From Methylovorus menthalis (GTDB lineage: Bacteria; Pseudomonadota; Gammaproteobacteria; Burkholderiales; Methylophilaceae), in the NCBI RefSeq assembly GCF_020523625.1, contig NZ_JAJAQH010000006.1, forward strand, positions 1,178,001 through 1,242,000: a stretch of 64,000 nucleotides of DNA, given 5' to 3'. Position numbers and translations under genes: made by a program. Below the pieces are notes generated by a model, which searched no databases, was not told the DNA's origin, and was given only the letters and a program-made list of their open reading frames with translations. This document shows positions 34,604 through 44,059 of this stretch, piece by piece; positions within the stretch are counted from its first letter, which is position 1, and every line of letters starts with the position of its first letter.

Positions 34604-37213
34604 ATGAAACTCTTTAACCGAAAATTACGCTATGCAGCCATTCGCATCCCGCTGATCTATTGCGTATTTGCGGTCCTTTGGATTATGGCCTCCGACCAAG
34701 TGCTGGCATTACTCCTTCCCGAAGCCACCAGAATCACGCATTTCCAGACCATCAAAGGCTTGCTGTTCATCCTCCTAACGGCGGGCCTCCTGTATCTTCT
34801 GATCAGCCGCCAGCAATTGCTGGCATCGCGCTATAACAGCCTGACTGTACATGCCAACGACAGCATTTTGCTGTTCGATCACACTGGCAAACTGGTAGAC
34901 GCCAATGCCCGGGCATTGCGCATGTACGGATATACGCGCACGGAAATGCAGCAAATACATGCCCGCCAGTTGTTACCAGATGAAGCGAGTGATTGGCGCA
35001 GCTGCTTGCTGGCGGAATCTCAACACGATGGCATTATTTTCGAGACAGAGCACAAGCGTGCAGATGGCATTGCATTCCCGGTGGAAGTCAGCGCCTGCCT
35101 GCTGAGAATTGGCGGTCATGATTACATTCAGGCCATTGTCCGCGATATTACCGAGCGCTTGCGCGTACTCGAAAAGCTACGCGATAGCGAACAATTGCTG
35201 ACGGATATGTCCGCTATCGCGCATATTGGTGGCTGGGAATTTGACGTTGAAACGGGCATTGGAAGCTGGACACGGGAAGTCGCCCATATTCACGGCGTGG
35301 AATTCAAGGACAACATTTCTGTCGAGTTCGGGCTAGGCTTTTATGAGTATGAATCTCACAAGAAAATTGACGCCGCCGTCAAAAATGCCATTGAACATGG
35401 AACACCTTACGATCTGGAACTAGAGCTGGTCACAGCGCGCGGTATTCGCAAATGGGTGCGCACCGTATGTACGCCAAAAATCACCGATGGCCGCGTAGTC
35501 AAGCTGCAAGGTTCTTTTCAGGATATTAGCGACCGCAAAGTGGCTGAGGACAAGATGCGTCTCGCCACCCTGGTGTTTGAAAACAGCAGTGAAGCCATCA
35601 TGGTAGTAGATGGCGATAGTCAGATTTTGTCGGTGAACCCGGCATTTACTGAAATGACAGGCTATACCGCGCAGGAAGTGGTCGGGAAAACCCCGAAAAT
35701 CCTCGCTTCCGGAAAGCAGGATCGAAAGTTTTATGAAGAGATGTGGCATCTGCTGGATAGCAATGGCAAATGGCAAGGCGAGGTGTGGAACCGCCGCAAG
35801 AATGGGGAGAGCTATGCCGAGTGGCTGACAATAGATACCATTTACAATGAAAATGGCGAAGTCATCCGCCGTGTAGCCCTATTCTCGGACATCACAAAGA
35901 ACAAGCAGAATCAGGAAGTTATCTGGCGACAGGCCAACTTTGATCAGTTAACGGGCCTGCCTAATCGGCGCATGTTGCACGACAGGCTCAATCAGGAAAT
36001 CCTCAAGGCGGATCGTAACAAGCAAAGGCTGGCGGTGCTGTTCCTGGATCTAGACCGATTCAAGGAAGTGAACGATACCTATGGCCACCTGATGGGCGAC
36101 CAACTGTTGCAAGACTCCGCACTACGATTGCTACACTCGGTACGTGAGTGCGACACAGTGGCGCGATTGGGCGGTGATGAATTTGTAGTGATTTTGTCCG
36201 GGCTTGACGATAAAGATGTCGTGCAGGACATCGCTCAATCCATCCTGAAAAAGTTTGAGGCGCCCTTCCAGTTGGACAACGACCTCACGCATGTCTCGGT
36301 CAGCATAGGCATCACGATTTATCCGGAAGATGGCAACATCGGCGAGGTGTTATTCAAAAATGCGGATCAAGCCATGTACGTGGCAAAAAGTAATGGACGC
36401 AATCGCTATTCGTATTTCACCGCCTCCATGCAGGCACATGCCCAAAACCGCATGCGCCTTAGCAACGACTTGCATCTGGCGCTCCCTGGGCAGCAATTTG
36501 AGCTGTATTACCAGCCGATCATTGACCTCGCGTCTGGGCAAGTGCTTAAGGCCGAAGCCTTGCTACGCTGGCAACATCCCACACGCGGCATGATTCCCCC
36601 GGATCAATTCATTCCTCTGGCAGAAGAAACCGGGCTGATTGTGGATATAGGCAATTGGGTATTTTACGAGGCGGCACGCCAGGCAAAACGCTTGCAATCG
36701 CTACATCATGCTGGTTTTCAGATCAGCATCAACAAATCCCCTGTGCAGTTTCATAACGAAACCAATGGGCATCAAGCCTGGATAGAATTTCTGCTGATGA
36801 ACGGTCTCCCCCGGCAAAGTATCGTGGTAGAAATTACCGAGGGGCTGCTGATGCATACCGACGAAAGTATTTCTGCCCAGCTGCTGGGGTTCCGCGATGC
36901 AGGGGTGCAGGTGGCACTGGATGATTTTGGCACGGGCTATTCATCCTTGTCATATCTCAAGAAATTTGACATTGATTACCTCAAGATAGACCGGATTTTT
37001 GTGCGCAATCTCAGCCGCAACTCCAGCGACATGGCTTTGTGCGAGGCGATCATCATCATGGCGCACAAGCTGGATATCAAAGTGGTGGCGGAAGGCATTG
37101 AAACGGAAGAGCAACGCGAGCTATTGCAGCAGATAGGCTGTGATTTCGGGCAAGGTTATCTCTTCTCCCCGCCGCTGCCGGCTCCAGCATTTGAGGCTTA
37201 TCTCAAACATTGA
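34604..37213 (+). CDS. Membrane PAS-GGDEF-EAL c-di-GMP protein (three PAS domains)
   Basis: The 869-residue protein has two N-terminal membrane helices (about 15-32 and 47-67), three PAS domains (about 80-195, 200-310 and 320-440), a GGDEF domain (about 445-605) and an EAL domain (about 620-865). GGDEF is intact (RLGGDEFVV) with an RxxD inhibitory site (RECD) five residues before it. The EAL domain keeps its catalytic set: EALLRW, NKS, EITEG, DDFGTGYSS and LKIDR. It could both make and break c-di-GMP, with PAS domains sensing redox or small ligands. Confidence 0.93.
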   Translation: MKLFNRKLRYAAIRIPLIYCVFAVLWIMASDQVLALLLPEATRITHFQTIKGLLFILLTAGLLYLLISRQQLLASRYNSLTVHANDSILLFDHTGKLVDANARALRMYGYTRTEMQQIHARQLLPDEASDWRSCLLAESQHDGIIFETEHKRADGIAFPVEVSACLLRIGGHDYIQAIVRDITERLRVLEKLRDSEQLLTDMSAIAHIGGWEFDVETGIGSWTREVAHIHGVEFKDNISVEFGLGFYEYESHKKIDAAVKNAIEHGTPYDLELELVTARGIRKWVRTVCTPKITDGRVVKLQGSFQDISDRKVAEDKMRLATLVFENSSEAIMVVDGDSQILSVNPAFTEMTGYTAQEVVGKTPKILASGKQDRKFYEEMWHLLDSNGKWQGEVWNRRKNGESYAEWLTIDTIYNENGEVIRRVALFSDITKNKQNQEVIWRQANFDQLTGLPNRRMLHDRLNQEILKADRNKQRLAVLFLDLDRFKEVNDTYGHLMGDQLLQDSALRLLHSVRECDTVARLGGDEFVVILSGLDDKDVVQDIAQSILKKFEAPFQLDNDLTHVSVSIGITIYPEDGNIGEVLFKNADQAMYVAKSNGRNRYSYFTASMQAHAQNRMRLSNDLHLALPGQQFELYYQPIIDLASGQVLKAEALLRWQHPTRGMIPPDQFIPLAEETGLIVDIGNWVFYEAARQAKRLQSLHHAGFQISINKSPVQFHNETNGHQAWIEFLLMNGLPRQSIVVEITEGLLMHTDESISAQLLGFRDAGVQVALDDFGTGYSSLSYLKKFDIDYLKIDRIFVRNLSRNSSDMALCEAIIIMAHKLDIKVVAEGIETEEQRELLQQIGCDFGQGYLFSPPLPAPAFEAYLKH

Positions 37214-37322
37214 AGCGCTAACCCACACCAGTACACTGACTATGATGGCAGTGATACCAGGTAGCGACCACGTTGCGTAAGATTGCATATACAGATCACT
37301 GCATTCATCACAAACGATGGGC

Positions 37323-37510
37323 AAAAAAATACCCGCCATCGGGGATAACAGCGGGTATAACAGGCTCACTCATCAGAGAGAGTCACAACATTAAGAGTCA
37401 GGAAATGTTGTGAGTTCATAATAGAGGCCTTCTGGTTTTCGATCTGTCGGCATTTGTCTGATATGCATGTCAGACATCCGGTTCACCCGCATGGCGAGCG
37501 CGGAGGCTCT
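37323..37510 (-). ncRNA. Candidate structured small RNA 1 (copy upstream of cfa)
   Basis: Read on the minus strand, three structures occur in order. First is a long hairpin domain: outer stem AGAGCCT/AGG-CTCT at 37510-37504 and 37430-37423, inner stem TGTCTGA/TCAGACA at 37455-37476. Second is a perfect 10-bp hairpin (37383-37392 with 37404-37413) with a CU-rich loop. Third is a rho-independent terminator (37330-37336 with 37351-37357) ending in seven T. The neighbouring protein genes are on the plus strand, so it needs its own promoter; TTGAAA and TAAGGA spaced 16 bases apart lie just upstream. It closely resembles the element at 38966-39158. Confidence 0.6.
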
Positions 37511-37751
37511 TGAATTCCTTATCCGCTCGGCATACCCTTTCAAAAAACACAGAACGAACCCCTTCATCAGGCATTAGCTGCCTTCAGGTCTTGCTGGCAT
37601 TGGTATTGCCAGGAACTGAGTGGGCCCATGGAGTTCTGATTTCTGTATCGTCCCCATCCTCTTCGCTGTGACTCAGGGGAAAAACGCGTTCATCCGGTTC
37701 TTGTCGATGCTTAACAGTGGTGCCCACACGCCACTTTAGTCATGGGAGTGA
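37511..37751 (+). other. cfa leader/promoter region with several hairpins
   Basis: No gene is seen here. On the plus strand three adjacent short inverted repeats occur: AGGCA/TGCCT (37569-37583), CTGGCA/TGCCAG (37594-37612) and GAACT/AGTTC around the palindrome TGGGCCCA (37613-37636). They suggest a structured cfa leader. The region also must contain any promoter of the minus-strand RNA candidate at 37323-37510. GGGAG at 37745 is the cfa ribosome-binding site. Confidence 0.4.
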
Positions 37752-38930
37752 ATGGTTGTGCACAAGCTAACAGAAACAACGCCGTTTTTTCGTCAGCCAT
37801 CGCGACCACAACCCGAGCCGCCGCGGGTAATCAGTGATCTCCTGGCTGATGTCGGGCTTACCATCAATGGCACCCAGCCTTGGGATATCCAGATTTACGA
37901 TGAAAAAGTCTACCAAATGATCCTATATAAAGGCTCGCTGGGGTTTGGCGTGGCGTACATGGAAGGCTTGTGGGAAGCCGAACAGCTTGATGAAACCTTT
38001 CACCGCTTGCTGAGCGCTGATCTGGATCGCAAGTTAAAAGGCTGGGCTCGTTTCCGCTTGTTGGCTGAAGCCGTGCGGCATCGCCTCTTCAATTTGCAGT
38101 CACAAGAGCGCGCATTTACCGTGGCCCACAAGCACTACGATATTGGCAACGATGTCTTCGAGGCTATGCTCGACTCTTCCATGAGTTACTCCTGCGCCTA
38201 CTGGGAGCATGCCGACAATCTGGAACAAGCCCAGCAGCACAAGCTCGACATGATCTGCCGCAAACTGGCTCTCAAGCCCGGTGAACACCTGCTGGAAATC
38301 GGTTGCGGCTGGGGCGGTCTGGCTCGCTACGCGGCTGAGCATTACGGCGTCAATGTCACGGGGATCACCGTTTCCAGGGAGCAGCAAAAGCTGGCCCAAC
38401 AGCGTTGTGCGCACCTGCCAGTCGACATTGTGCTGATGGACTATCGGGATTTGCGTGGCCAATACGACAAAATTGTTTCCGTCGGCATGTTTGAGCATGT
38501 GGGGCCAAAAAATTATCCTGTTTACTTCCAACAGGCGCACGATCTACTCAAGAAGGATGGCCTTTTTTTGCTGCATACCATAGGCAATTACGTCACAGCC
38601 CCCAACACCGATGCATGGATAGACAATTACATCTTCCCCAATGGCAAGATTCCGTCAGCGACCGAAATTACACAAGCCATTGAAGACAAATTCATTCTGG
38701 AAGACTGGCACAACTTTGGCCAGGATTACGACCGCACGCTGATGAGCTGGTGGCAGAATTTCAACGAGGCATGGCCAACGCTTTCAGCGCAATATGGCGA
38801 ACGGTTTTATCGCATGTGGCGCTATTACCTGATGTGTTGCGCAGGATACTTTCGCTCCCGGCAGGGCCAGCTATGGCAGCTGGTATTGAGCAAACGTGAA
38901 AAGAGGCAGGTTTATCGCTCTGTCCGCTGA
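37752..38930 (+). CDS. cfa: Cyclopropane-fatty-acyl-phospholipid synthase
   Basis: The 392-residue protein has the N-terminal lipid-binding region and the SAM-dependent methyltransferase domain with LLEIGCGWGGLARYAAE (about 178-194). The CFA-specific stretches HKHYDIGNDVFEAMLD and SVGMFEHVGPKNY are present. It adds a methylene group from SAM to cis double bonds of membrane phospholipids, usually in stationary phase or under acid or solvent stress. It is between the two structured RNA candidates and near a FadL-type porin. Confidence 0.97.
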   Translation: MVVHKLTETTPFFRQPSRPQPEPPRVISDLLADVGLTINGTQPWDIQIYDEKVYQMILYKGSLGFGVAYMEGLWEAEQLDETFHRLLSADLDRKLKGWARFRLLAEAVRHRLFNLQSQERAFTVAHKHYDIGNDVFEAMLDSSMSYSCAYWEHADNLEQAQQHKLDMICRKLALKPGEHLLEIGCGWGGLARYAAEHYGVNVTGITVSREQQKLAQQRCAHLPVDIVLMDYRDLRGQYDKIVSVGMFEHVGPKNYPVYFQQAHDLLKKDGLFLLHTIGNYVTAPNTDAWIDNYIFPNGKIPSATEITQAIEDKFILEDWHNFGQDYDRTLMSWWQNFNEAWPTLSAQYGERFYRMWRYYLMCCAGYFRSRQGQLWQLVLSKREKRQVYRSVR

Positions 38931-38965
38931 CCCATTCTTTGAAAAAACCATTAGAATCAGTAGAC

Positions 38966-39158
38966 AAAAAAATACCCGCCGTTGGGGAAACGACGGGTAT
39001 ATAACGAAGGGTTGTGCAATACTTCTATTAGGGAATGAAAATATTGCAGAACCAATGGTATAGATTTCTTATTCATGCTCTCAGACGAGTTTGTCTGTCG
39101 ACTTTGTAGGATTAGTCCTACAAGCTTCGACGGGTAACCAGACGCCGTTTGAGAGCAT
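38966..39158 (-). ncRNA. Candidate structured small RNA 2 (copy downstream of cfa)
   Basis: Read on the minus strand it has the same layout as the element at 37323-37510. The 5' domain has a perfect 9-bp outer stem (39158-39150 with 39083-39075), a TCGA stem and a perfect 8-bp stem-loop TTGTAGGA/TCCTACAA (39104-39123). A second hairpin, TGCAATA/TATTGCA (39015-39048), follows. A terminator with ATACCCG/CGGGTAT (38972-39000) ends in seven T. It sits between the convergent cfa and fadL-like genes, so the terminator may also end the fadL transcript. Confidence 0.6.
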
Positions 39159-39299
39159 TTGTTTTTTTATGGATTATCAATCACTTAATAAGTAATGCTT
39201 ACTGTCCACGTTGGGTTTGATAGCTAATCGCGCAAATGTAACAGTTTGTAAAAGTTTCCCGGATGGCGATTTTCACCAACCTCTCTTGTATTTCCCCCT
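39159..39299. other. Short gap before the fadL-like gene end
   Basis: No gene or clear terminator directly follows the fadL-like stop at 39300. An AT-rich stretch at 39160-39195 could be the promoter of the RNA candidate at 38966-39158; I see no convincing -35/-10 pair. Confidence 0.3.
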
Positions 39300-40571
39300 T
39301 TAAAACCACCTGCTCCATTGCACCGAGATAATATTGACATTGCTATCGTAGCTGCCGGTTATACGCCCATTAAAGCCTGCAGATGCGCTGCTTTGGTTGT
39401 CATCAATATGAGCATCCCGCAAAAACAAATGCGCATAGCCAACATCGAGTCGGTCTCTATCTGATATATCCCAGCCAGCCCCCAGCGTAAGCCAGAGCCT
39501 GTCGTTGCCGGGGATGCGCGTTGTACGGTCACGTTCGCTCATGGCTTCTTCATCATAGGCCACACCGGCACGCAGCTTCCATTGCGGGTTGTAGCGATAA
39601 CTTACGCCCAGCGAATACCGCATGGTGTTTTGCCAATTTTCGGGAGTCAGGCTAAGGACAGTGCCGTTGCTATTGAGGATTCTCAATTCGTTGAACTGGC
39701 TCCAGCGCGTCCAGCTGATATCCCCCAGCAGCTCCCATTGCGCATTCAAATGATGGATAGCACTCAGCGAGAAGGATTCCGGCAAGTCCAGATTGGCGCT
39801 GATCTTGCCGTTATTGGCCGCCAGTGCCTGACCAAACTTTACCGTGCCTTCCAGATGCTGCACAACGCGGGAACGGTAAGCGAGGCCAATGCGGGTATCG
39901 CTGGCAAGTTGATAGATGGCGCCCAGATTAAACCCATAGCCCCAATCATCACCTGAGATATTGGCAGTACTCTCGCTCGTGACGAGATTCACCGCACGCG
40001 TCAGCTCGGCATCCGCATACATCACGGAGACCCCCAGCCCCAGTGACAGGCGATCACTTACCCGAAACGCAATCGCGGGGTTGATGTTGTAGGTTTTTAG
40101 CTCGGATTTCACCGCCTGAAAGCGCCCTATCCAGCCCTTGTCATATTCGGTCTTGAGGCCGAATGGCGCATTCACCGAAATACCCAGTCGTATATCCGGC
40201 GTTACCACATGCGAGTAGTAAAAATTGGGCACCACCGCCCAGTCGCCGATGTTCCCGCCTTCATCTGTGCCAGGCCGACCCAAGGCACTCACCGAGCCCT
40301 CGTTATTGAAATGCCCCGATGGACGAATGGCATGCGCGCCTACGACCAGTTGTGATTGCGGTAAATACACCATGCCAGCCGGGTTGAAATACACCGTGGA
40401 GGCATCCTCAGCGCTGGCGGCAGCGCCTGCATAGGCGTTGCCCATGGCACTGACACTTTGCTCAATGAGGGAAAACCCTGCGCCATGCGCCGTTGAGGGC
40501 AGGATAATGGAGATGGCTAGTACCGAAAGTGCTCTGAACAGCAGACTTGCCACAATATGGTCATTCCGCAT
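39300..40571 (-). CDS. FadL/OmpP1/TodX-family outer-membrane transport protein
   Basis: The 423-residue protein begins with a signal peptide (cleavage after STAHG or AHGA) and then the FadL plug signature AGFSLIEQSVSAMGNAYAGAAA with EDASTVYFNPAGM. The rest is beta-strand rich and ends in Phe (WSRWF), typical for outer-membrane barrels. Members transport long-chain fatty acids or hydrophobic compounds such as toluene. Beside cfa this fits lipid handling, but the substrate is unknown. Confidence 0.92.
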   Translation of the reverse strand: MRNDHIVASLLFRALSVLAISIILPSTAHGAGFSLIEQSVSAMGNAYAGAAASAEDASTVYFNPAGMVYLPQSQLVVGAHAIRPSGHFNNEGSVSALGRPGTDEGGNIGDWAVVPNFYYSHVVTPDIRLGISVNAPFGLKTEYDKGWIGRFQAVKSELKTYNINPAIAFRVSDRLSLGLGVSVMYADAELTRAVNLVTSESTANISGDDWGYGFNLGAIYQLASDTRIGLAYRSRVVQHLEGTVKFGQALAANNGKISANLDLPESFSLSAIHHLNAQWELLGDISWTRWSQFNELRILNSNGTVLSLTPENWQNTMRYSLGVSYRYNPQWKLRAGVAYDEEAMSERDRTTRIPGNDRLWLTLGAGWDISDRDRLDVGYAHLFLRDAHIDDNQSSASAGFNGRITGSYDSNVNIISVQWSRWF

Positions 40572-40611: not shown

Positions 40612-42942
40612 TTAAAGTGTGTGCTCAAATACCGATAGCTCCGTAGGCCTGCCATACAGATACCCCTGATACGCATGGCATCCCACCTGTTCAAGAAACA
40701 CTTGCTGATACGGCTCCTCAATTCCCTCTGCAATCACATCCAGCCCCAGGTTTTTGCTCATGGCGATAATGGTTTGCACAATCACGGCGCTGTCATTTTT
40801 GGGTGCGTTATCCTGGATCTCACGCACAAAGCTCTGGTCTATCTTCAAGGAATCCAGCGGCAAGCGCAGCAATAGCGAAAGCGAAGAATAGCCAAGCCCA
40901 AAGTCATCCATGGAAAGCGAAACGCCTATGCTTTTAAGCGCCTGCATCTTGCTGACAATGTCATCAATATTCTGAATCACCAGGCTTTCTGTCAGCTCTA
41001 GCACCAGCAATTTTTCGTTGCAACCGCTTTCGAGCAGGGCATGGCGCACCTGCTCAACGAAGTCAGTCTGGCCAAACTGCATGGCACTGACATTGACCGC
41101 AAGCCGCAAGTGACTGGTTTTGGCATGGTGACTCCACTTGCCCAGTTGCATGCACGCCTGCTGCAACACCCAGTTGCCAATGGGGATAATCAGACCAGAC
41201 TCCTCTGCCAATGGAATAAACTCCGCAGGCGAGACCATGCCGCGCTCCGGGTGATGCCAGCGTAGCAATACCTCCGCCCCTGTGGTCTGCAACTGACCAT
41301 CGACTTGGGGCTGGTAATAAAGCTCAAACTGGCCTAGCGAAAGCGCAAAACGCAGATCATTTTTGAGGCTGGCACGCAAATCGATCACCGGCAGCATGCT
41401 TTCATCAAAGAAGCGGTAATTGTTGCGGCCCGCCCGTTTGGTTTCATACATGGCAGCATCTGCCCGCTTCAGCACTTCTTCCACATGCATGCCTTGGCGC
41501 TGGAATATGCAGATTCCAATACTGGCGGAGCATTGATGCTTGTAGTTTCCCAAATCAACCGGCAAGGCGATATCCCCAAGAATTTTTCCCGCAATTTGGC
41601 TGGCCGTCTGGATGGCTGCTTCTTCATCCCGCCCAATATCTTCCAGCAGCAGCACAAACTCATCCCCGCCAATGCGCGCTACGGTATCGTGGTTTCTCAC
41701 CGCCCGTAGCAGACGCGTCGCCACCTCTTTCAGCAGCAAATCACCAAACGCATGGCCGCGACTGTCGTTCAGTGTCTTGAAGTTATCCAGATCAATAAAC
41801 ATCAACCCGCCAATGCGTAGTGAACTGCGGCTATTGTTGAGTGCCTGCGAAAGCCGCTCCATCAATAGCCGTCTATTCGGCAGATTGGTCAAAGCATCAA
41901 AATACGCTAGGCGCTCAATCTCATCCTGCGCCTTCTTGTAGGCCGTCTCATCTTGAATCAGCGAGGCAAACCCAATAATGCGGTTCTGGTCGTTCTTGAT
42001 CGCGGTATTAAACCATTCGCAATGAATCACCCGGCCATCGCGCCGCACATTGTCATGCTGCCAATGCTGGCCACCGGCCTCATGCGCCAGCTTGTTCATG
42101 ATCTCCTGAGCCATCAATCGCCCCTCTACAGGCACAATAAAACTCATGTGCTGCCCCATCGCTTCCGAAGGCGGATAACCGAAAATATGCTCCGCAGCCG
42201 CATTCCAAGAGGTCACCCTGAAGCCTACATCCCACTCGATGACCGCCAGCGGCGTATGATCGATATGCAGCTTTTGTCGCTGCGCCATAGCATTTATCGC
42301 CTCCTGACGTTGGTGAGCCGTAATGCGCAAGACGATGTTTTCGCGTAAACGATTGGCCAATTTAAAGCTGGCAATCGAGACGTATAAAATGAAAAGCAGC
42401 AGATTCACTGCCATGAGCATGGAAAAGTGATTGCCATCCCAGAAAAACCGCGGCAGCCCCAGCAGCACCAGTCCACCAGCAAAAGCAAACGCAGTAGGCT
42501 TATCAGTCGCATAAGCCATGACCGCCCCGCCACACACCCCCGCCAGCGCGAGCGTCAAAAATGCCTGATGCGCCGTATCGTCAGGATAAAAAAGAAAAAT
42601 GCCAGACAAACCCCAGGCAACCCCGCACAGGCCGGACAACGCGCGGAACCAGTTAAGCCAGAAAACAGGATGATAGGAATGCGCGGGCGTGCGCAGGTAA
42701 ACCCAGACCAAGGCCTTGCGCAGGATGTAGGCAATCAGAAAAAAAGTAATCCAGGCCAGGCTGACGGACAATGGAATCACGTCCGACTGCACATACACCA
42801 GCAAGCTTGCCACAATAGTCGCAAATACAAATGAACGTGTGCTGCTGGCGTAGAGCATCTCTACAATTTCCAGTGTCAGATCTGCATGGTTGCCCGAATA
42901 CAGAAAATCCCCTGGCGACGGCTGATATCCATTCCCTGACAT
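40612..42942 (-). CDS. Membrane PAS-GGDEF-EAL c-di-GMP protein
   Basis: The 776-residue protein has an N-terminal module of about six membrane helices (30-200), one PAS domain (about 220-340), GGDEF (about 345-510) and EAL (about 520-775). GGDEF is intact (RIGGDEFVL) with an RNHD inhibitory site. In the EAL motif the alanine is valine (EVLLRW), but the catalytic Glu is kept, as are NVSAMQF, ELTES, MDDFGLGYSS and LKIDQ. It could act as cyclase, phosphodiesterase or both. The start at 42942 has GGAG at a good distance. Confidence 0.93.
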   Translation of the reverse strand: MSGNGYQPSPGDFLYSGNHADLTLEIVEMLYASSTRSFVFATIVASLLVYVQSDVIPLSVSLAWITFFLIAYILRKALVWVYLRTPAHSYHPVFWLNWFRALSGLCGVAWGLSGIFLFYPDDTAHQAFLTLALAGVCGGAVMAYATDKPTAFAFAGGLVLLGLPRFFWDGNHFSMLMAVNLLLFILYVSIASFKLANRLRENIVLRITAHQRQEAINAMAQRQKLHIDHTPLAVIEWDVGFRVTSWNAAAEHIFGYPPSEAMGQHMSFIVPVEGRLMAQEIMNKLAHEAGGQHWQHDNVRRDGRVIHCEWFNTAIKNDQNRIIGFASLIQDETAYKKAQDEIERLAYFDALTNLPNRRLLMERLSQALNNSRSSLRIGGLMFIDLDNFKTLNDSRGHAFGDLLLKEVATRLLRAVRNHDTVARIGGDEFVLLLEDIGRDEEAAIQTASQIAGKILGDIALPVDLGNYKHQCSASIGICIFQRQGMHVEEVLKRADAAMYETKRAGRNNYRFFDESMLPVIDLRASLKNDLRFALSLGQFELYYQPQVDGQLQTTGAEVLLRWHHPERGMVSPAEFIPLAEESGLIIPIGNWVLQQACMQLGKWSHHAKTSHLRLAVNVSAMQFGQTDFVEQVRHALLESGCNEKLLVLELTESLVIQNIDDIVSKMQALKSIGVSLSMDDFGLGYSSLSLLLRLPLDSLKIDQSFVREIQDNAPKNDSAVIVQTIIAMSKNLGLDVIAEGIEEPYQQVFLEQVGCHAYQGYLYGRPTELSVFEHTL

Positions 42943-43663: not shown

Positions 43664-44059
43664 TCAACTTAATGCTTTCTTCTTGGTGCCAGGCTTCTTG
43701 GCAGGCGCCTCAGCCTTTGGCAACTCAGGCTGTACCACCTCTTTTTTCTCAGGCGCTTTCTTGGCTGCAGCTTTTACTACAGCAGGCGCATCCTCAGCCA
43801 CGTGCTTGGCTGACTTTGCCTTTGCCTTGGGCTCAGTATCTGCCTTGTTTTTCGCCTTGATCGCATACATGCGCTCGCGCCACTCATGCAATTGCTCATC
43901 CTCAATTTCCAGCTGAATCGCCAGAGCTTCCTCTTTACTGAGCTTGTCCTTTTGCAGACGACGCGGCAATTTACCCGCCATTCTGGAAAGCAACCGCTCC
44001 TGCTCTTCAGCATTCAGTTTCTTGGCCTGCTCCAAATACTCCGGACTACTCATCTTCAT
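43664..44059 (-). CDS. Lysine/alanine/proline-rich small protein of unknown function
   Basis: The 131-residue protein starts at ATG 44059 with GGGGG just upstream. Residues 1-75 are charged and predicted helical (SPEYLEQAKKLNAEEQERLLSRM and KEEALAIQLEIEDEQLHEW). Residues 76-131 are a low-complexity Lys/Ala/Pro/Glu tail ending in AKKPGTKKKALS, like the tails of bacterial histone H1-like proteins. Nucleic-acid binding is possible but not shown. There are no membrane segments. I do not recognise a named family. Confidence 0.75.
   Translation of the reverse strand: MKMSSPEYLEQAKKLNAEEQERLLSRMAGKLPRRLQKDKLSKEEALAIQLEIEDEQLHEWRERMYAIKAKNKADTEPKAKAKSAKHVAEDAPAVVKAAAKKAPEKKEVVQPELPKAEAPAKKPGTKKKALS

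Follow-up and report, generated by a model that had tools for sequence, protein, structure and literature searches.

The cfa locus and its two predicted minus-strand RNAs

The window is the whole 64,000-nucleotide stretch of Methylovorus menthalis DNA that was analyzed. In it, the cfa gene is flanked by two structured elements on the minus strand, here called RNA1 and RNA2 (Table 1). A gene for a PAS-GGDEF-EAL protein is found on either side, and the second of these is probably in one operon with the fadL-type transporter gene. Upstream of cfa there is also a palindrome, TGGCATTGGTATTGCCA (window 37595-37611), that, read towards cfa on the plus strand, has the spacing of a sigma-54 promoter (GG, 10 nt, GC); on that strand it is intact in the other two Methylovorus species.

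Table 1. Positions of the genes, RNAs and RNA elements (window positions unless a contig is named; G000 is the genome of the window)
Feature	Position	Strand	Remarks
First PAS-GGDEF-EAL gene	34604-37213	plus	other side of RNA1 from cfa
RNA1 core	37323..37476	minus	154 nt, RNA perhaps extending to ~37520; between first GGDEF-EAL gene and cfa
RNA1 intrinsic terminator	37329..37358	minus	loop UUAUCCCCGA, then 7 T
RNA1 hairpin B	37383..37413	minus	10-bp stem, 11-nt loop UCCUGACUCUU; predicted to seed pairing with cfa and GGDEF-EAL starts
cfa translation start region	37737..37764	plus	UAGUCAUGGGAGUGAAUGGUUGUGCACA; predicted pairing site of RNA1 and RNA2 hairpin B
cfa, cyclopropane-fatty-acid synthase (CMAS, PF02353)	37752..38930	plus	predicted target
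RNA2	38966..39160	minus	195 nt; between cfa and fadL end
RNA2 intrinsic terminator	38972..39000	minus	loop UUUCCCCAA, then 7 T
RNA2 hairpin B	39010..39053	minus	GGUUCUGCAAUAUUUUCAUUCCCUAAUAGAAGUAUUGCACAACC; predicted seed for cfa start
Presumed promoter/regulatory block of RNA2	39161..39253	minus	conserved; TTTTACAAACTGTTACA box, dyad ATTACTTATTAAGTAAT, GATAAT; function inferred
fadL-type outer-membrane transporter gene (PF03349)	39300..40571	minus	40 bp downstream of second GGDEF-EAL gene
Second PAS-GGDEF-EAL gene	40612..42942	minus	start AUGUCAGGGAAUGGA; predicted target
RNA3	G000:C5:56268-56413	minus	starts in last codons of a DUF4186 gene next to tmRNA gene; own terminator
G018 relative	C1:1215936-1216071 (L199; also L186)		between two tRNA genes and PpiD-like gene

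Folding as minus-strand RNA gives -63.1 kcal/mol for the RNA1 region (z -4.0 against shuffled sequence) and -66.9 kcal/mol for the RNA2 region (z -8.1). Together with the strong terminators, this confirms the sequence-only reading that had described both regions as structured, with elements in the same order on the minus strand. The RNA1 core consists of a 5' hairpin A, the motif GACAAATGCCGACAGA, the linker TATTATGAA, hairpin B, hairpin C and the terminator; hairpin C is a small third hairpin that the earlier description lacked. In RNA2, ATGCTCTCA/TGAGAGCAT closes a branched 5' domain, which is followed by hairpin B and the terminator, with no small hairpin between the last two. Both terminators are strong minus-strand terminators with 12-pair stems, TCCCC loops and 7 T, and the T-runs are present on this strand only. 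The 16 identical bases through the T run that had been noticed earlier, GGCGGGTATTTTTTTG, were found in both. The terminator pattern ACCCG..CGGGTATTTT occurs in the 2.92-Mb genome at RNA1 and RNA2 only (the reversed control pattern had 0 matches), and a search of all genomes with a 17-base terminator pattern gave chance matches only, Methylovorus mays excepted.

Outside the terminator, direct sequence alignment of RNA1 and RNA2 is not significant (p 0.22), and the case for their kinship there rests on the covariance model. The RNA1 model, R1, retrieves RNA2 over its full length at 36.3 bits (E 4.5e-5 genome-wide), with a match that takes in the CGACAGA motif as well as the 5' hairpin. The compensatory change that had been proposed for the inner stem (TGTCTGA/TCAGACA versus TGTAGGA/TCCTACA) is present and falls in the same columns of the covariance model; shared CGACAGA, which had been offered as further evidence, is by itself at chance level. 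In RNA1, conservation of the long branched 5' domain of the earlier description is poor upstream of 37476, with the inner hairpin alone being fixed.

Conservation in the genus

Each of the three sequenced Methylovorus species has retained RNA1 and RNA2. When the three are aligned, the last ~100 nt of RNA1 (its 3' module, 37423-37323) differ at one base and the ~96-nt 3' module of RNA2 (39061-38966) does not vary, while conservation is lacking in the adjoining intergenic DNA (37200-37300 and 39250-39300) and coding DNA has ~70-90% identity. DNA searches matched both RNAs within the genus only, with a few 22-37-base matches outside it (E 1e-4 to 0.01), and phage sequences gave no match to either.

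RNA1 is conserved from 37476, and because farther upstream just short stretches are fixed in the three species, its 5' end is uncertain; the transcript may start farther upstream, at ~37510-37560. No gene lies upstream of RNA1 on its strand. A sigma-70 promoter scan was uninformative. Upstream of RNA2 there is a block of 93 bp that is presumed to be the RNA2 promoter; an unconserved gap separates it from fadL, and its conservation sets in abruptly. The OmpR-box-like TTTTACAAACTGTTACA together with the near-perfect dyad ATTACTTATTAAGTAAT, which has one mismatch in the window species, suggests a putative activated promoter.

Further members of the family

The covariance search that had been proposed for finding further members yielded a third sibling, RNA3, and a relative in another genus. 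RNA3 was retrieved with R1 (E 5.5e-5) in all three Methylovorus genomes, each of which thus carries RNA1, RNA2 and RNA3. It shares with RNA1 a 30-nt collinear block in which 23/30 positions are identical (dinucleotide-shuffle p about 0.001) and an RNA1-like hairpin B of 8 bp with an 11-nt pyrimidine loop, and the stem of this hairpin shows a compensatory A-U to G-C change between species (GACATG..CATGTC to GGCATG..CATGCC). The DUF4186 gene that it overlaps (L180 1501-2061, G000:C5) has a Methylovorus-specific tail of ~40 residues, the last codons of which form the overlap, and ~48 nt of this coding end are identical in the three species. An origin of the family from this gene was considered and rejected: the domain ends at residue 113, and the genes of other genera mostly match to ~115-137, none with an RNA behind. 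It is more likely that the Methylovorus reading frame extends into RNA3.

The relative outside Methylovorus is found in another genus of the Methylophilaceae (genome G018, genus g17) and reaches 33 bits with R1. It has in common with RNA2 the pattern TCCTACAAA..CAGACAAACTC (p 0.002), and the UUUCCCC terminator loop is also present. That genus gave no close cfa match. A joint model, R3, whose training sequences included the G018 relative, gave no further convincing member among 187 Methylophilaceae genomes. In the joint alignment 91.7% of the cells are paired, versus 34-46% when the partners are slid, and two-sided changes are seen at 16 of the 34 pairs, counts that lean in favour of the structure to which the alignment was fitted. 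When the 3' modules of six sequences were aligned jointly with MAFFT, hairpin B came out poorly aligned.

Pyrimidine-rich loops with complementarity to purine-rich start regions are a feature of every member. Neither RNA3 nor the G018 relative is linked to cfa, and at 27 cfa loci of other Methylophilaceae both the terminator and an R1 match were absent. Linkage to cfa as a conserved trait was therefore rejected (0 of these 27 loci); it is genus-specific. The proposal that RNA1 and RNA2 are sibling sRNAs of the trans-acting type is backed by three-species conservation, covariation, the further members and the lack of coding potential, and we consider it very probable that the two are genuine sibling sRNAs.

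Predicted pairing with translation starts

Pairing of the loops with ribosome-binding sites, which the sequence-only reading had put forward for prediction, was calculated as duplexes against 372 start regions, a sample drawn from the window and from 18 further stretches of the genome. Six loops were looked at, with limits chosen by hand. With the hairpin B loop of RNA1, the start of the second GGDEF-EAL gene, AUGUCAGGGAAUGG, ranks first (-18.2 kcal/mol) and cfa fourth of 372, and with that of RNA2 they rank second and fourth. Shuffled loops ranked a pair of neighbour genes this well in 2 of 600 cases for RNA1 and 3 of 600 for RNA2; for the loop of RNA3, which is unlinked to cfa, shuffles were as good in 127 of 600. 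For the anti-hemB and G018 loops, cfa and GGDEF-EAL fell outside the top 12 of the 372 starts. Only 4 starts (RNA1 loop) and 2 starts (RNA2 loop) of 372 lie below -14 kcal/mol, versus 41-106 for generic anti-Shine-Dalgarno hairpin B loops.

In a 20-nt sliding scan of both RNAs, the neighbouring genes were top-ranked mainly at hairpin B and the linker that follows it. The RNA2 segment UGCAAUAUUUUCAUUCCC placed cfa second (-18.4), a 9-bp match of RNA2 UGCACAACC to GGUUGUGCA over the cfa start placed it first, and a segment of RNA1 hairpin C placed it second. The start sites of cfa and GGDEF-EAL and the pairing loops are invariant in the three species; as stems and loops hardly vary in the genus, covariation gives no check on the targets. 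When a term for accessibility is included, RNA2:cfa and RNA1:GGDEF-EAL rank sixth of 370 and RNA1:cfa drops to rank 80; the long-duplex energies are then near zero because the seeds were not optimised jointly. For the start of fadL itself, pairing is weak to moderate and involves the C-rich terminator loops (ranks 16 and 26). Of the earlier suggestion of a link to cfa or fadL, the cfa part is thus supported by the predicted pairing of loop and ribosome-binding site, but fadL by itself pairs weakly, and the better second target is the GGDEF-EAL gene that precedes it by 40 bp. The chance that cfa and/or GGDEF-EAL are direct targets may be put slightly below even. As a side observation, the RNA1 terminator loop would form 11 bp with the start AUCGGGGGUAAUUAUG of a small Lys/Ala-rich gene (window 43664-44059), the best of the 372 starts, in 2 of the 3 species.

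Comparison with known small RNAs

Neither RNA1 nor RNA2 scores above the cut-off of any Rfam family. The nearest in architecture is anti-hemB (RF02837; ncS04 of Burkholderia cenocepacia), which like RNA1 has a middle hairpin with a pyrimidine loop, a small third hairpin and a UUAUCCCC-type terminator loop. RNA1 shows this element order in a full-length alignment (model 1-81), and RNA2 is without the small middle hairpin. As an assignment anti-hemB was rejected: RNA1 scores 21.4 and RNA2 16.1 bits versus a gathering cut-off of 49.5, among background matches, and the score of RNA1 is no proof of membership, since at E<=1 anti-hemB also has matches in 10 of the 14 unrelated genomes taken as controls. 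A true anti-hemB is found in the same genome at G000:C4:82699-82787 (L223 1501-1589; 67.5 bits), beside a UvrD/Rep-type helicase gene. Of 39 genomes sampled across the order, 30 have an anti-hemB that passes the cut-off, most Methylophilaceae among them (the family was named from Burkholderia), and each of the loci read in G000, G013 and G023 adjoins a UvrD/Rep-type helicase gene. Among their few outside matches, R1 and R3 weakly retrieve true anti-hemB loci (G023, G013, G048 and G019), and therefore the architectures are alike; this likeness may be due either to distant descent or to convergence.

The double-hairpin sRNAs of Burkholderia (RF02278, Betaproteobacteria toxic small RNA; ncS03/05/27/62) resemble RNA1 and RNA2 as dispersed paralogues with a hairpin, a terminator and CU-rich loops. 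These loops are complementary to ribosome-binding sites, which they occlude (PMC5688073), and such unpaired CU-rich stretches are also predicted in RNA1 and RNA2. However, RNA1 and RNA2 are about twice as long and carry a 5' hairpin domain. RF02278 was rejected as a family for RNA1 (16.7 bits versus a cut-off of 50), and it has no match at E 0.01 in G000-G002, the three Methylovorus genomes.

The likeness to the sibling sRNAs of Neisseria and rhizobia that had been drawn earlier holds as a resemblance in kind, but not as membership of a family past an Rfam cut-off. In Neisseria, the pairing loop of the NmsR siblings blocks the ribosome-binding site (PMC9973317). NmsR and NgncR_162/163 are, like RNA1 and RNA2, siblings with stem-loops; the Neisseria pair is adjacent, 78% identical and controls central metabolism, whereas RNA1 and RNA2 are far more diverged, have one gene between them and have their neighbours as predicted targets. 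In E. coli and enterobacteria, cfa mRNA is a target of RydC, ArrS, CpxQ, OxyS and GcvB (PMC6755755, PMC12691595). Those RNAs are unrelated and encoded elsewhere, whereas the genes of RNA1 and RNA2 flank cfa and their predicted site is its ribosome-binding site and start codon. By analogy, RNA1 and RNA2 would resemble the Neisseria siblings and the Burkholderia double-hairpin RNAs in action, and by descent they belong to none of the tested families.

Proposed function and alternatives

At this locus there are two conserved, structured, non-coding minus-strand loci that belong to one small family and have specific, conserved complementarity to the starts of their neighbours. From this we infer a mechanism in which RNA1 and RNA2 are transcribed, each ending in its own terminator, and the poly-U tail would lead to chaperone binding. 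The pyrimidine-rich loop of hairpin B would pair with the Shine-Dalgarno and start regions of the cfa and GGDEF-EAL(-fadL) mRNAs, by which ribosome binding would be blocked and translation repressed. In this way RNA1 and RNA2 may jointly tune membrane cyclopropanation and a c-di-GMP enzyme, and RNA2, with its own conserved promoter block, may respond to an OmpR-like regulator. As a whole, the statement that these are paralogous regulatory sRNAs with their own terminators, the hairpin B loops of which repress the neighbouring cfa and GGDEF-EAL(-fadL) mRNAs, seems to us evenly balanced.

One alternative keeps the siblings as genuine and makes them act in trans on many unlinked mRNAs, by generic C/CU-rich anti-Shine-Dalgarno loops, with the position at cfa being where the duplicates landed. 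The loops complementary to purine-rich starts in all members, the location of RNA3 and the G018 relative away from cfa, the 27 loci of other genera with no member near cfa, and the occlusion of ribosome-binding sites by NmsR and the double-hairpin sRNAs (PMC9973317, PMC5688073) all fit this option, but the RNA1 and RNA2 loops are selective and their best starts are those of the neighbours. We regard it as a serious possibility, though not the favoured one. The narrower form of a locus-tied pair, in which the siblings bracket cfa and jointly gate translation of cfa and GGDEF-EAL/fadL with loops adapted to the local starts, in contrast to that of the unlinked sibling, and thereby link membrane cyclopropanation to c-di-GMP signalling, appears doubtful. 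Another hypothesis derives RNA2 by processing from the 3' UTR of the GGDEF-EAL-fadL operon and takes RNA1 to be a by-product, antisense or leader, of the promoter region of cfa. RNA2 does lie downstream of fadL on the same strand, and RNA3, at the 3' end of the DUF4186 gene and overlapping its last codons, indicates that such an arrangement exists in the family. Yet the block before RNA2 starts abruptly past the unconserved gap, as its own promoter would, and RNA1 has no upstream gene on its strand, and we consider this explanation unlikely.

The two elements could also just terminate transcription, or form the 3' ends of convergent genes, with no regulatory RNA. RNA2 is directly behind cfa, RNA1 is behind the first GGDEF-EAL gene and both have strong terminators; however, with T-runs on the minus strand only, the hairpins are not canonical terminators for the plus-strand genes, and neither the near-invariance of ~100 nt upstream of the hairpin nor the loss of conservation past the T-run would be explained, which makes this option very improbable. 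It is harder still to believe that RNA1 and RNA2 are small protein genes (dual-function RNAs). Open frames of ~26-35 codons in RNA1 and 39-53 codons in RNA2 exist, but coding was rejected for both: an insertion in G002 interrupts the frame of RNA1, and the RNA2 frame reads through the terminator, with species differences that change amino acids and a remainder that is identical including third positions.

The preferred reading remains that of paralogous regulatory sRNAs. The literature searched has an RNA-seq study of M. glucosotrophus (PMC3728764) and gave no sRNA report for Methylovorus, and most likely this is an unnamed sRNA family of a known kind, with three paralogues per Methylovorus genome and specific start-site predictions. 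RNA1, RNA2 and RNA3 would be paralogous sRNAs with a kept scaffold and a pairing loop that diverges by genomic position. If confirmed, sRNA control of cfa, so far a matter of E. coli, would reach a methylotroph through unrelated RNAs that flank the gene, and membrane lipid modification would be tied to a c-di-GMP enzyme.
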